DNA from: an uncultured Pelagibacteraceae bacterium
GTDB taxonomy: Bacteria; Pseudomonadota; Alphaproteobacteria; Pelagibacterales; Pelagibacteraceae
Reading direction: 5' to 3'
Length of the DNA stretch: 64,000 nucleotides
Assembly (NCBI GenBank): GCA_902582165.1
Contig: CACHQZ010000001.1
Coordinates: 186,001 to 250,000 of the forward strand
Each line of letters begins with the position of its first letter. Within the stretch, counting starts at the first letter, position 1. Made by a program: the position numbers and the translations under genes. Shown here piece after piece: positions 6,310 through 51,895 of the stretch. Under the pieces are notes generated by a model. The model did not search any database. It saw only the letters and a program-made list of their open reading frames with translations, and was not told the origin of the DNA.

Positions 6310-8028
6310 TTATTTCTTTTTCTCTTTTTTACCAATAGCCTTTTCAAATATGCCTTTTAAAGTAGCTCCAGATTTTGTGGCGCCCTCACCAAATTTAGCT
6401 ATGAGAGATTTTTCTTCATCGATTTGAGCCGCCTTAACGCTTAATTTTATTTTCCTTTGGTTTAAATCAAGTTCTGTTATCTTAGCATCCAAGGCATTTC
6501 CAGGTGAAAACACCTCTGGTCTTGCATCCGCTGAGTCTTTAGCTAAGTCTAATTTTCTGATTGTTACAATCAATTTTTTGTCTTTATCAATTGACACTTT
6601 TACTCCAGTTTTTAGCACTTCGCTAATTCTAGTAGTAATTACGTCTCCAACATTTTTATTATTATCTTTAAACCAATCTAATGGATCTTTATCTAGAGCT
6701 CTTTTTGAAAATCTTATTTTTTCGTCTTTAACTTCTAAAATTTTAACATTTAATTTATCATTTTTTTTGTATCTCTTCAGGTCTTCAACGTTTTCATCAT
6801 AAGATAATTCTTTATAATGTAGCATTCCTGACAAACCTGATTCTTCAATTTCTCCAAATATTGCTTTCTCAGACAAAGAGCTGATCTTAATTTTAACCTC
6901 TTTACCTATCATGTCTTTTATTTTCTCCCAAGGATTATCCAAAGTTGCTTTATAAGATAAAGAAATTCTCTTAGTTTCTTTATCAATATTGACAATCTTA
7001 AACTTAATATTTTGTGATACTGCTAATATTTTACTTGGTTTGATGTTTCGATTTTTCCAATCTAATTCAGAACTATGTATTAAACCCTCAATACCGTCCT
7101 CAATTTTAACAAAGCATCCGTAATCCATTATTTTTGTTACTGTTCCCTCGTACACCTCTCCGACTTTATATTTTTTTTCTATATTTTCGTAAGGATCTTC
7201 AGTTAGCGCTTTAATTGAAGCAGAAACTCTATTTGTCTTTGCGTCAATTTTTGAAATTTTAACTTTAAGTTTTTGACCTATTGTCACTAAGTCAGAGGGT
7301 TTTTTTACTCTTCCATGACTTAAATCACTAACGTGCAATAAAGCGTCAATTCCATTTATATCTAAAAATATTCCCCAGTCTGTTGTAGCTTTTACAATAG
7401 CATTATCAACAATATCACCCTCTTTAATATTTTTTAAAGCCTCACTTATTTCAGCATTTTTACTTTTTTCTAGTACAGCTCTTCTAGATACGCAAACGTT
7501 TCCACGATTTTTATCAATTCTTGTTGCAATTACTTTTACTGGAGTATTCATAAGGTGGTCAATTTTTTTTAAAGGTCTCACATCAATTTGAGATGAGGGC
7601 ATGAAACAAGGCAAACCTTCAACAGTAGCGATAAATCCACCTTTAACTTTTCCAGTTATATATCCAGTCATTTCTTCTTGAGTTTCAAAAACTTTTTCCA
7701 TTTTTTTCCAAGCTTTCATTTTTCTAGCCTTGTCTCTTGAGATAATTATTTCACCTTTAAAACTTTCAATTCTTTCTAAGTAAACATCAATTTTAGATCC
7801 AACTTTTAATTTTGAAAGCTCATCATCATTTTTGAACTCTTCAACTGGTATCATACCTTCCATTTTTGCTTTACAATCAACAACAATATAGTTTTTTGTT
7901 ATTTCGGAGACTGTGGCTTTAATAATTTCGTTTTCTTTGAGTTTTCTATCTTTAAAATCTTGATCTAGTAAGTTTTGAAATTCTTTGTGAAGGGTATTAT
8001 TTCTTTTAATCTCTTGTTCAGTTGACAT
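6310..8028 (-). CDS. rpsA: 30S ribosomal protein S1
   Basis: multiple S1 repeats (DWGIFLDINGIDALLHVSDLS, DYGCFVKIEDGIEGLIHSSEL). Confidence 0.95.
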   Translation of the reverse strand: MSTEQEIKRNNTLHKEFQNLLDQDFKDRKLKENEIIKATVSEITKNYIVVDCKAKMEGMIPVEEFKNDDELSKLKVGSKIDVYLERIESFKGEIIISRDKARKMKAWKKMEKVFETQEEMTGYITGKVKGGFIATVEGLPCFMPSSQIDVRPLKKIDHLMNTPVKVIATRIDKNRGNVCVSRRAVLEKSKNAEISEALKNIKEGDIVDNAIVKATTDWGIFLDINGIDALLHVSDLSHGRVKKPSDLVTIGQKLKVKISKIDAKTNRVSASIKALTEDPYENIEKKYKVGEVYEGTVTKIMDYGCFVKIEDGIEGLIHSSELDWKNRNIKPSKILAVSQNIKFKIVNIDKETKRISLSYKATLDNPWEKIKDMIGKEVKIKISSLSEKAIFGEIEESGLSGMLHYKELSYDENVEDLKRYKKNDKLNVKILEVKDEKIRFSKRALDKDPLDWFKDNNKNVGDVITTRISEVLKTGVKVSIDKDKKLIVTIRKLDLAKDSADARPEVFSPGNALDAKITELDLNQRKIKLSVKAAQIDEEKSLIAKFGEGATKSGATLKGIFEKAIGKKEKKK

Positions 8029-45719: not shown

Positions 45720-46396
45720 AAAATTTGATTACTATAGGTTTGCCAAGTAAAGGGCGATTAAAAGAAAAATCAATATCATTTTTTAATGACAGAGGATTAA
45801 AAATTATACAAAATGAAAAAGAAAGAAATTATTTTGGAACTATAGAAAATAAACCTGACGTTAAAATTATATTTTTACATGCTAAAGAAATTATTCAAAG
45901 ATTAGCAGACGGAACACTAGATATCGGTGTATCTGGTCTGGATCTTTTGAAAGAGTCGAACATAAATTTACAAAATAAAATAAATATTCAAAAAAAACTT
46001 AATTATGGAAATGCGAAATTAGTGATTGCTGTGCCAGATGACTGGATAGATGTGCAGACAATTGCTGATCTTGAAGAAATATCATTTGATATAAGATCAA
46101 AAAGAAATACTAGGTTGAGAGTAGCTACTAAATATCCAAATTTAACTAATGATTTTTTGATTTCAAAAGGAGTTACCCAATACAAATTAATATCTAGTCT
46201 TGGTGCTACAGAAACATATCCTTTTATAGGCTCATCAGAAATAATTACTGATATTACCTCTACGGGTAAAACTTTGGCTGATAACAATTTAAGAGTTCTT
46301 AAAGATGGTTTGATACTAAGCTCTAATGCATGTTTGTTTATTGCAAAAAAAAAGGCTGCAAAAGTGCAGCCTTTTTTGAAATCTCTGGGTAGGTGA
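45716..46396 (+). CDS. hisG: ATP phosphoribosyltransferase, short form
   Basis: GLPSKGRLKEKS, DIGVSGLDLL; 226 aa without C-terminal regulatory domain. Confidence 0.95.
   Translation: MKNLITIGLPSKGRLKEKSISFFNDRGLKIIQNEKERNYFGTIENKPDVKIIFLHAKEIIQRLADGTLDIGVSGLDLLKESNINLQNKINIQKKLNYGNAKLVIAVPDDWIDVQTIADLEEISFDIRSKRNTRLRVATKYPNLTNDFLISKGVTQYKLISSLGATETYPFIGSSEIITDITSTGKTLADNNLRVLKDGLILSSNACLFIAKKKAAKVQPFLKSLGR
46346..46376 (+). terminator. intrinsic terminator inside the hisG 3' coding end
   Basis: AAAAAAGGCTGC-aaaagt-GCAGCCTTTTTT, before the hisG stop. Confidence 0.8.
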
Positions 46397-46453
46397 AGTT
46401 ACATTCTCATACTGGTTGTCATTAAGTCTTATATTATCTAGTCTTTTTAATTT

Positions 46454-46475
46454 TTGTTCATCAAAGTTCATCTAA
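46454..46475 (+). repeat. left flanking repeat of the RM island (2 units of GTTCATCAAA-like)
   Basis: TTGTTCATCAAAGTTCATCTAA, matching 50109-50143. Confidence 0.75.
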
Positions 46476-46485
46476 TTTACATCTC

Positions 46486-46507
46486 AATTCAAAAGGAATT
46501 CAAAAGG
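46486..46507 (+). repeat. perfect 11-bp tandem duplication
   Basis: AATTCAAAAGG AATTCAAAAGG. Confidence 0.85.
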
Positions 46508-46535
46508 TAAATTTTAGTGATATATATTACCTTTT
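46502..46535. promoter_or_regulatory. inverted repeat abutting the methyltransferase start codon
   Basis: AAAAGGTAA-N16-TTACCTTTT then ATG at 46536. Confidence 0.6.
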
Positions 46536-47552
46536 ATGAGATTCATTGGTTCTAAAAGATTACTTCTTAAAAACATAGAGTATGTAATTAATCAAAATAT
46601 TAAAGATAATGAAAACATTAATACATTTTGTGATATTTTTTCAGGGACCACAGTAGTTTCACAATACTTTAAAAATAAATATAAGATAATTTCAAATGAT
46701 TTGTTATATTTTTCTTTCTGTCTTCAAAAATCTTATCTTGAAATAAATAAAAAACCCAAATTTAAGAATTTAAATTTAGATACTGAAATTGAAGAATATT
46801 TAAATCAATCTAATCAACTAAAGGAAGGTTTCATCTATAAAAATTATTCTCCTGGCGGCAAAGAAAAAAGGAAGTATTTATCTGAAGAAAATGCAAAAAA
46901 AATTGATAATTTAAGATCTAAATTTAATAAGTGGTTAAAAGAAGATAAAATTGATAAAAATGAATATTACTATCTTGTATCACTGGTTGTTGAGGCAACT
47001 CCTTTCGTTTCAAATATTGCTGGTACATACGGTGCATATTTAAAGAACTGGGATAAAAGAAGTTTTAAGAAACTTGAATTAAATCCTTTGAATATTGTTA
47101 ATAATAATATGAACAACAAAAGTTATAATGAAGACTGTAATAATCTTATTAAGAGAATTGAGGGAGATATCATCTATTTAGACCCTCCCTATAATAGTAG
47201 ACAATATCTTCCAAATTATCATTTGTTAGAAACAATTGCAAAATATGATGATCCTAAAATAAAGGGTAAAACAGGTATAAGAGAATATGAAAATCAAAAA
47301 TCAAATTTTTGTAATAAATCCTATGCAGAAGATGCTTTGGAAAGTTTGATAAAAAATTCGAATTTTAGATATATTTTACTAAGTTATAATTCTGAAGGAA
47401 TAATCAGTGAAAGAAAGTTAGAAAAATTACTTAAGTCGTACTCTAATAAACTTTTTAAAAAATATAGATTTGATTACAGAAGATACAAAAAGGATAAAAA
47501 AACAAAAAAAGATAAACTGTATGAATTAATTCATATAATAGATAAGGACTAA
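46536..47552 (+). CDS. D12-class DNA adenine N6-methyltransferase (FokI-methylase-like)
   Basis: MRFIGSKRLLLKNI, FCDIFSGTTVV (motif I), IIYLDPPYNSRQY (motif IV). Confidence 0.88.
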   Translation: MRFIGSKRLLLKNIEYVINQNIKDNENINTFCDIFSGTTVVSQYFKNKYKIISNDLLYFSFCLQKSYLEINKKPKFKNLNLDTEIEEYLNQSNQLKEGFIYKNYSPGGKEKRKYLSEENAKKIDNLRSKFNKWLKEDKIDKNEYYYLVSLVVEATPFVSNIAGTYGAYLKNWDKRSFKKLELNPLNIVNNNMNNKSYNEDCNNLIKRIEGDIIYLDPPYNSRQYLPNYHLLETIAKYDDPKIKGKTGIREYENQKSNFCNKSYAEDALESLIKNSNFRYILLSYNSEGIISERKLEKLLKSYSNKLFKKYRFDYRRYKKDKKTKKDKLYELIHIIDKD

Positions 47553-48679
47553 TGGAAATAATCGATAAAAATAAACTCAATAATTTATTAGATAAAAAAT
47601 TATCTAAAAATGATATTGAAGAACTAAGCAAAGAAATAATAAAAAAAGTTAAAGAACTAAAAAAAAGAGAGAAAAATAAAAAAAGAAAAGAGCAATTAGA
47701 TCTTCTTGAGAAAAAATTTGATTTAAAAATTCTAAATAAAGAACAAATTAGTAAAATACCAAATTGGATAAAGAAAAACCTTAAAGATTGCAAAGTAATT
47801 GGAAGTTCAAAAAAAGTAATATTGACTAAAAATGGTCAAAAATTTCATCTCGATAACAAACTTAACGACCTAGCAGGAAATGAGTGGAGTTATTTTTTAA
47901 GATCTGTAATTAATACAAGATACTCCACTTCAGGCGAAGAGGGTTATGCACACCATGTAAGAAAAATTCACCCTTCTCCAAAACCACCTCAATTAATGAG
48001 AGACATAATTAAATTTTTTACTAAAGAGAATGAATATATTTTGGATTATTTTATGGGAGTAGGTGGCACTTTAATTGGAGCGTCTTTATCAAAAAGAAAT
48101 GCACTAGGAATTGATTTAAGTTCAAAATATATAACCGCATACAAAAAAGCATGTAAAGAACTTAAACTTAAGGAACAATCGACAATCAAGGGAGATTGTT
48201 TAGATATACTTAAAGATAAAAACCTTATCGAAAAATATCTTAAAAATAAAAAATTTTCACTTATAGCAATTGATCCTCCCTATGGAGATATGATGAGCAG
48301 AGAAAAAACAGGAGAAGCGATAAAGAAAAATCAATCAACCGATGCAACACCTTTTACAAAGAATAGAAGCGATCTAGGAAATATGGATTGGAAAAGTTTT
48401 AAAGAAAAATTTCTAGAGTCTATACATTTGTCTATACCTTTTTTAAAAGATAGAGGTCATTATGTAGTCTTCATAAAAGACCTACAACCAAAAGAGGGTC
48501 AAACTAACTTATTACATTCTGATCTAATTGAGGAAATGAACAAAATCGAAGGTCTTAACTATATTGGAATGAAAATTTGGGCAGATGAGTCTATAAATTT
48601 ATACCCATACGGTTATCCTCATAGTTTTGTCTCCAACCAACTTCATCAATATATTATGTTTTTTAGAAAAAAAAATTAA
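47552..48679 (+). CDS. second DNA methyltransferase (N6-adenine/N4-cytosine type)
   Basis: SPKPPQLMRDIIKFF, ILDYFMGVGGTLIGA (motif I), LIAIDPPYGDMMS (motif IV). Confidence 0.85.
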   Translation: MEIIDKNKLNNLLDKKLSKNDIEELSKEIIKKVKELKKREKNKKRKEQLDLLEKKFDLKILNKEQISKIPNWIKKNLKDCKVIGSSKKVILTKNGQKFHLDNKLNDLAGNEWSYFLRSVINTRYSTSGEEGYAHHVRKIHPSPKPPQLMRDIIKFFTKENEYILDYFMGVGGTLIGASLSKRNALGIDLSSKYITAYKKACKELKLKEQSTIKGDCLDILKDKNLIEKYLKNKKFSLIAIDPPYGDMMSREKTGEAIKKNQSTDATPFTKNRSDLGNMDWKSFKEKFLESIHLSIPFLKDRGHYVVFIKDLQPKEGQTNLLHSDLIEEMNKIEGLNYIGMKIWADESINLYPYGYPHSFVSNQLHQYIMFFRKKN

Positions 48680-50030
48680 TTTTATCTCTAAAGATTAAAT
48701 TATAATTTTTATCTAGTTGAAATTCAATTTTGTCTATATTTTTCTTCTTACCACCATTTATTATAAGACTTCTTTTATATTTATATTCAGGATAGTATTT
48801 TTTTAAAAATCTATTTTCAAATAAGTCAAAATGTTTAATTTCTTCTAAACCTTTGTCTACAGAATCAAACTTCTTACCTTCAAATTGATGAATTATTTTA
48901 TTTTTATCATCTCTTATTACTAGATCAGGTATTTTTCCTCCATCTGCTGAAAATTTCTTATCAATTTTTAATTCATTATTACTAATGTCATAAAAATAAC
49001 TTTTTTCACAACCACCATGGTTATCAAAAATTGTAATTAAATCATTATTTTCTAAAATCACTTGCGCAAGAATTGTTGCTACTTTTTCTTTGTCTTTTTC
49101 ATATTCCCAATAATCAAAATTAAAGTTTGATTTTGGTAAATTACAACCATCTAATTCAAAATTAATATAATTAGCAAGATTTACAAACTTGTTTGTGCCT
49201 ATCTTATTTTGAAGGACCTGATGATTTGTAATAAGAATTTTTTTTGTCCAACCAAGACTTCTAATCACTTTTGCAATAAGAGGTATTTGACCCATATTAG
49301 GATCATGACCAATCCTACCTGTATAGTTTTTGTTAGTTTTATTTGGATTAGCGAGTAAAGAAGAAATTTTAATTACATCATTTTCTTTTTTTATTTTTAT
49401 TGGGGTGTCATTTTTTCTAGTATTTGTATCTGCAATTTCATTTTTTAATTTAATAAACTCTTCTAAAGTTTCAAATTTTTTAAATTTTGAACTTTTTTTT
49501 CCCCAGAATTCAATCCCACATTCAAGATGATATAGAGATCTATTGATAAAATTGACTGATTTGTGATCTTCCTCCGCTTGTTCATGAGAAAAAAACATAA
49601 TAGGTTTTGTTTCTGCTTTATATTTTTGAATATAGTAATTTAATGTATTAAATTTACTAGATCTTTGACCCATTGCTGTATTTCTTGAGTCGTAAGAATT
49701 TGTTTTAGTTTCTTCAATTGCGTATACACAGTTTTTTAATATTTGTTCTGGTTTGGGTTCTTTTTCTTGAAGGAAAACTAAGAAGTCGACAAAACTTGAT
49801 CTACTCGAAATTAATCTAATAAAAATATTTTGTATCTTGTCAGATCTAACTTTAGAAATTTTAAATGCATGTAAGAATTTATTCTTCTCAATTAGTGGTT
49901 CTATTTTAAATTTTTCAATTTTTATATTCAGATTTTTAATTAAACTTGTTTTTTCTATAATTTTTTCTATGACCGCTTTTTTTGGTCTTTCTTCGGTTAG
50001 AATCCACAAGTTTTTATTGCTTTGTACCAC
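48663..50030 (-). CDS. putative restriction endonuclease (PD-ExK-like)
   Basis: convergent with the two methylases; PDLVIRDDKNKIIHQFEGKK resembles PD-x(n)-ExK; GTG start. Confidence 0.65.
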   Translation of the reverse strand: MVQSNKNLWILTEERPKKAVIEKIIEKTSLIKNLNIKIEKFKIEPLIEKNKFLHAFKISKVRSDKIQNIFIRLISSRSSFVDFLVFLQEKEPKPEQILKNCVYAIEETKTNSYDSRNTAMGQRSSKFNTLNYYIQKYKAETKPIMFFSHEQAEEDHKSVNFINRSLYHLECGIEFWGKKSSKFKKFETLEEFIKLKNEIADTNTRKNDTPIKIKKENDVIKISSLLANPNKTNKNYTGRIGHDPNMGQIPLIAKVIRSLGWTKKILITNHQVLQNKIGTNKFVNLANYINFELDGCNLPKSNFNFDYWEYEKDKEKVATILAQVILENNDLITIFDNHGGCEKSYFYDISNNELKIDKKFSADGGKIPDLVIRDDKNKIIHQFEGKKFDSVDKGLEEIKHFDLFENRFLKKYYPEYKYKRSLIINGGKKKNIDKIEFQLDKNYNLIFRDKINFFF

Positions 50031-50072
50031 AATAAAATTTTAGCAGATGGTCGTGTATAATCCAATAAAACC

Positions 50073-50098
50073 GTTATACGTGCAAATGCAAGTATAAC
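50073..50098. promoter_or_regulatory. operator-like dyad upstream of the putative endonuclease
   Basis: GTTATACGTGCAA/ATGCAAGTATAAC, 11 of 13 positions symmetric. Confidence 0.55.
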
Positions 50099-50108
50099 AT
50101 TTGATCAA

Positions 50109-50143
50109 TTGTTCATCAAAAGTTCATCAAAATGTTCATCAAA
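50109..50143 (+). repeat. right flanking repeat of the RM island (3 units of GTTCATCAAA)
   Basis: TTGTTCATCAAAAGTTCATCAAAATGTTCATCAAA. Confidence 0.85.
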
Positions 50144-50164
50144 CTTTTTTTCGTACAAATAAAA

Positions 50165-50192
50165 AAAAAGGCGAGTAAAAACTCGCCTTTTT
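50165..50192 (-). terminator. groEL intrinsic terminator
   Basis: AAAAAGGCGAGTAAAAACTCGCCTTTTT. Confidence 0.85.
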
Positions 50193-50218
50193 GAATTCTA
50201 TTGAGTGCTGAATGTGTC

Positions 50219-51895
<1,677 letters not shown>

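Follow-up and report, generated by a model that had tools for sequence, protein, structure and literature searches.

Three genes at the hisG-groEL junction

The DNA analysed here (hereafter the window) is a 64,000-nt stretch from an uncultured Pelagibacteraceae bacterium whose assembly comprises 954 kb in 33 contigs, is an estimated 85% complete, has about 30% GC and carries a SAM-V riboswitch. Between hisG and groEL we found three intact ORFs, referred to as M1, M2 and R. M1 (46536-47552, + strand; 338 aa, N-terminus MRFIGSKRLLLKNI) is a D12-class N6-adenine methylase (Pfam MethyltransfD12, E 1.8e-40) with FSG at about 46632-46649 and DPPY at 47181-47192, and in fused methylases of the M.FokI type the N-terminal half is its homologue. 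M2 (47552-48679, + strand; 375 aa) overlaps M1 by exactly 1 nt at 47552. It is an N6/N4 methylase that matches Pfam N6_N4_Mtase (E 2e-23) and, over nearly its whole length, the PADLOC model MTase_II PDLC03391 (E 8e-134); its motifs run HPSPKPP/DYFMGVGGTL (47969-48067), then DPPYG (48272-48283), all on the + strand. R (48663-50030, - strand) is a restriction endonuclease gene with a GTG start; its product has 455 aa and contains PDLVIRDDKNKIIHQFEGKK, and R converges on M2 with a 17-nt overlap at the end of the latter. The earlier note, made from the letters of the window, had described this arrangement of two methylases and a nuclease with its 1-nt overlap, and it stands as described. All three proteins match PADLOC restriction-modification (R-M) models, and with an endonuclease gene adjoining its cognate methylase genes, M1-M2-R is, as judged from sequence, a type II R-M cassette.

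Comparison with the empty site of relatives places the inserted cassette at 46411-50218. The hisG-groEL site has no gene in 10 of the 12 same-genus relatives checked, where the two genes are convergent with about 8-22 bp between the matched coding regions; in the window, 3.8 kb is inserted at this junction. A 12-bp direct repeat that stems from the end of groEL bounds the insert: the right copy, TTACATTCCCAT (50219-50230, +), is the groEL 3′ end itself, and the left copy, TTACATTCTCAT (46399-46410, +), is what is left of that end as it stood in the empty site. Because two relatives carry other cargo there, we regard the junction (window 46396-50219) as an insertion hotspot. Named by reading the sequence, this cargo comprises an FkbM-like methyltransferase and a 1121-aa helicase-nuclease-like protein in one relative (L117, 893-5322) and a short-chain dehydrogenase-like gene in the other (L115, 919-1817).

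Between groEL and R stands a strong intrinsic terminator with a 12-bp stem (50165-50192); on its R side, at 50119-50091, is a promoter-like site. Both intergenic regions flanking the cassette contain GTTCATC repeats spaced about one helical turn apart: two upstream of M1 (46456-46472, +) and three upstream of R (50111-50140, +), the latter 11-12 nt apart and overlapping a predicted -35 element. With five copies in 327 nt of intergenic sequence, this 7-mer count is higher than in any of 2000 dinucleotide shuffles, of which 2 reached the maximum of 4. We found no controller gene within the cassette, and no GTTCATC arrays in the closest relative, L008, or the other M1+M2 loci. The arrays are candidate operators that could act on the cassette promoters.

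The nuclease and its relatives

The earlier note had left the nuclease without a family. R matches the PADLOC profile REase_II PDLC03445 (E 4.8e-47), and a single scan of genomes, queried with an alignment of five sequences, confirmed 139 relatives, 80 of which were kept, so that the family is now assigned. R matches the profile in two separate stretches and scores 159 bits against 208-245 for its relatives, from which we conclude that it is a divergent member. The HMM and structure searches proposed in the same note bore fruit in part: beyond the PADLOC match, neither Pfam nor NCBIfam matched R, and sequence and profile searches of the PDB returned nothing credible.

Relatives of R are found in bacteria, archaea, prophages and plasmids (82 other near-full-length sequences compared); tblastn recovered four Streptococcus prophage records and three plasmids, and nine viral contigs also carry one. 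The window R is about 34-41% identical to every relative except that of L008, and it is the most divergent sequence in the R tree, with an end branch of 3.15 that makes its placement unsafe. Two loci carry tandem R paralogues, a Psychrobacter plasmid (L005, 5433-8307) and a viral contig (L124, 730-3405). A predicted structure from a Megaviridae environmental sample (BFVD A0A5J6VIV0) matches the whole R fold with a TM score of 0.80 at 24% identity and may represent a giant-virus relative.

In an alignment of 83 sequences (the window and 82 relatives), two regions of R are nearly invariant. The N-terminal motif, D82...E107-T-K109...Q122-R123 (E-X14-QR; 49662-49787, -), retains D82, E106, K109, Q122 and R123 in all 83 sequences and E107 in 82. 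The C-terminal motif, P368-D369-X14-E384-G385-K386 (48873-48929, -), retains P368, D369, E384 and G385 throughout and K386 in 77/83. An AlphaFold model of R, built from an alignment without the phage and plasmid rows, reached a pLDDT of 85.7 and a pTM of 0.87 and places a strand-strand-helix-strand arrangement around both motifs (strand-strand-helix in another description of the C-terminal one). Searched at full length against the PDB with Foldseek, the model had no match at E 0.001 (best E 0.028); the non-significant matches include SdaI, BsoBI, Bse634I, BstEII and N.BspD6I, and several of the top-ranked ones are restriction enzymes. The best PDB fold matches of the N-terminal half, with TM scores near 0.3 and E >0.001, were Mus81-Eme1, Cdn1, BstEII, Card1 and BsoBI, all of which we take to be PD-(D/E)xK-type nucleases. 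Comparison of the two halves of R detected no internal duplication (hhalign probability 2%).

R thus seems, from alignment and model, to combine two different catalytic-type motifs in a single polypeptide. The type IIT class takes in single-chain enzymes whose two sites differ, and its members usually come with two methylases (PMC4081073). Since both motifs are near-invariant and lie in one chain, R looks to be type IIT, in the manner of BtsCI and Mva1269I. We also considered a FokI-type IIS nuclease, with one catalytic domain that dimerises, and set it aside: R shows no sequence or fold likeness to FokI, of which solved structures exist, and no FokI chain appeared in the phmmer and profile hits or among the Foldseek matches listed. 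Of the type IIS-like system suggested earlier, what holds is that the nuclease probably serves an asymmetric site; the likeness to FokI does not extend to R. As R has no close solved structure and two apparently different active sites, its family could yield strand-specific nicking enzymes.

Recognition site, methylase partners and role

We consider the cassette best explained, with good though not full confidence, as a horizontally acquired type II (IIT/IIS) R-M system. In the mechanism that we propose, R would act as a single chain on a short asymmetric site, where each of two non-equivalent PD-(D/E)xK-type active sites would cut one strand just beside the site. Our best guess for this site is GGATG/CATCC, taken by analogy from systems of Prevotella intermedia whose genes are laid out in a matching geometry and whose site has methylome support. 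M1 would then methylate the adenine on the GGATG strand and M2 that on the CATCC strand; host DNA would be protected by M1 and M2 together, and unmodified phage DNA would be cut by R. In M.FokI, the N-domain methylates GGATG and the C-domain CATCC. The M1/M2.HpyPU010X enzymes of Helicobacter pylori methylate GGATG.

Within the window, GGATG shows no clear signal of avoidance (observed/expected 0.85, rank 106 of 1024). The cassette itself contains neither GGATG nor CATCC, a weak signal because only about three occurrences are expected. It is possible, if distinctly less probable than the site proposed above, that the type IIT architecture is the same and that R, M1 and M2 of the window recognise a different asymmetric sequence. 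R is the most divergent sequence in its tree, and because it sits on so long a branch its site may have changed; moreover, GGATG was assigned through the gene geometry of distant relatives and not by aligning sequences with those of a characterised enzyme. Against a changed site, M1 is about 38-52% identical to the M1s of the family, and R retains the family motif residues.

M1 aligns to positions 1-339 of the 646-position two-domain model MTase_II PDLC03287 (E 1.9e-116), in agreement with the FokI-methylase-like N-terminus pointed out in the earlier note. A Dam-like methylase (hereafter C) that is present in most relatives and absent from the window aligns to positions 363-641 of the same FokI-shaped model. 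M2 is not a second D12 (Dam-like) domain of the FokI type and belongs to another methylase family. DPPY is kept in 22/22 aligned M2 sequences, and for this reason we predict that M2 forms m6A.

We examined the methylase partners around R in 85 loci, including the window. In 81 of these, R lies beside adenine methylases: M1+C (53 loci), M1+M2 (14), M1+C+M2 (8) and partial sets (6). Loci with R and no methylase are mostly contig ends. A Bacteroidetes MAG holds a real solitary R (L065, 6013-7368), with a shortened N-terminus and no such methylase in the 13-kb locus. The C-M1-R loci include true fusions of M1 and C (L007, L039, L049, L082), and M1 and M2 form a single chain in four loci from different phyla (L017, L041, L077, L085). 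In the R tree, the partner label changes 8 times against a shuffled mean of 19.6, suggesting that partner choice is clustered yet has changed several times. An N6/N4-type methylase lies beside R and C, with no M1, in three loci (L034, 5171-5917; L057, 5055-5873; L058, 132-983); since L034 and L057 have C and this other methylase, M1 too appears to be exchangeable.

These gene sets suggest that M2 stands in for the usual FokI-C-like Dam methylase as the partner of R, and the M1-M2 fusions elsewhere support M2 as the putative second-strand enzyme; the C+M1+M2 loci, where both are present, show that M2 does not everywhere simply take the place of C. M2 had been described as a second methylase unrelated to the first, and unrelated it is, but it is no arbitrary neighbour: it recurs beside R across phyla, sometimes fused to M1. 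In phage records (E 1e-30), M2 was confined to four prophages, all of them with R as well. Viral contigs gave six strong M2 loci: five hold R, and the sixth contig ends just after M2. A single-sequence scan of viral contigs found no M1 relatives. Matches to M2 in haloarchaeal plasmids (about 31%) lie in other contexts and were set aside.

It is unlikely that M2 is an unrelated passenger (an orphan or R-M remnant), with M1, alone or together with a missing partner, protecting against R. Loci with three methylases do exist, and the 181-aa ORF beside M2 in Streptococcus phage Javan105 could be a separate nuclease; the fusions of M1 to M2, the 14 loci with M1, M2 and R and no C, and the rarity of M2 without R in the collections searched all speak for M2 as a working partner of R. 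With M2 as such a partner, the repeated exchange of the second methylase means that an asymmetric site can come to be protected by a different enzyme with no change of nuclease. Tentatively, and as less likely than not in its entirety, we put forward a wider scheme, in which the second-strand methylase is swappable around one conserved nuclease with two sites (FokI-C-like Dam, M2 or both, with M1 itself replaced by another N6/N4-type methylase in a small number of loci from Saccharibacteria and Treponema) and the near-cognate GTTCATC/GATGAAC promoter arrays perhaps enable regulation by the methylases without a controller protein.

Of 297 family genomes, the one that contains the window is alone in having R, and the same holds for M1 and for M2. 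SAR11 bacteria seldom carry R-M systems: one study reported 14 bloom MAGs to be free of antiphage systems and listed putative R-M systems for 19 of 172 genomes of Pelagibacter (PMC11066056), and in another the Pelagibacterales genomes had none (PMC9516812). For one Pelagibacter prophage, a methylase akin to a GGATG enzyme has been reported (PMC12570018). The only close relative of the cassette lies in a Betaproteobacterium, TMED82 (L008), at 76-88% aa identity by piece (M1 77%, M2 82%). With dS unsaturated, dN/dS between the window and L008 is about 0.05-0.09 (M1 0.09, M2 0.05, R C-terminal fragment 0.08). In L008 (5860-7300), several frameshifts split R while M1 and M2 are intact; an assembly error may account for this.

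That the cassette is mainly a selfish addiction or epigenetic module, or that R is inactive, seems improbable to us: the frameshifted R beside intact methylases in L008 and the single occurrence in the family would fit, whereas the window R is open with every motif residue present, and the R fragment of L008 has evolved at a dN/dS of 0.08. As an R-M system, this complete, compact cassette in a groEL-side hotspot offers a testable pelagiphage defence.

Comparison with known systems

Pin17FI and Pin25611FI of Prevotella intermedia are FokI-like systems with two methylases, and their methylomes show m6A at GGATG and CATCC (PMC5608340). Pin17FI has an R of 466 aa (1401 bp), an M1 of 1068 bp, overlaps of 4 and 8 bp, and two adenine methylases (PMC5608340); its R and M1 lengths and its overlaps are identical to those of one locus of our family (L013). 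Its second methylase, at 311 aa, has the size of a Dam-like enzyme and in this agrees with the C+M1+R loci and not with M2; the comparison is one of gene geometry.

BtsCI (GGATG 2/0) is a single-chain type IIT enzyme according to Too 2010 as quoted in PMC4081073 and PMC6097692; in PMC6097692 its site for the bottom strand is given as E-X14-QR and that for the top strand as PD-Xn-EXK. Measured against this description, R resembles BtsCI in combining E-X14-QR and PD-Xn-EXK in one chain. The first site of BtsCI is given there as SD-X6-E-X14-QR, whereas D82 of R lies 24 residues before E107 and no invariant D occurs at the BtsCI spacing.

Relative to the FokI R-M system, M1 is similar to the N-half of two-domain methylases of the M.FokI type, and M2 is unrelated to the second domain of such methylases. 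The prophage Javan105 (L004) shares the convergent R/M2 layout of the window, with R 37%, M1 46% and M2 51% identical, and additionally has the Dam-like C and a 181-aa ORF, both absent from the window cassette. This ORF lies between R and M2 (6383-6928), has no Pfam match and contains a possible D...DxK motif. The window cassette is a known kind of system in which the pairing of the methylases, M1 with M2, is unusual.
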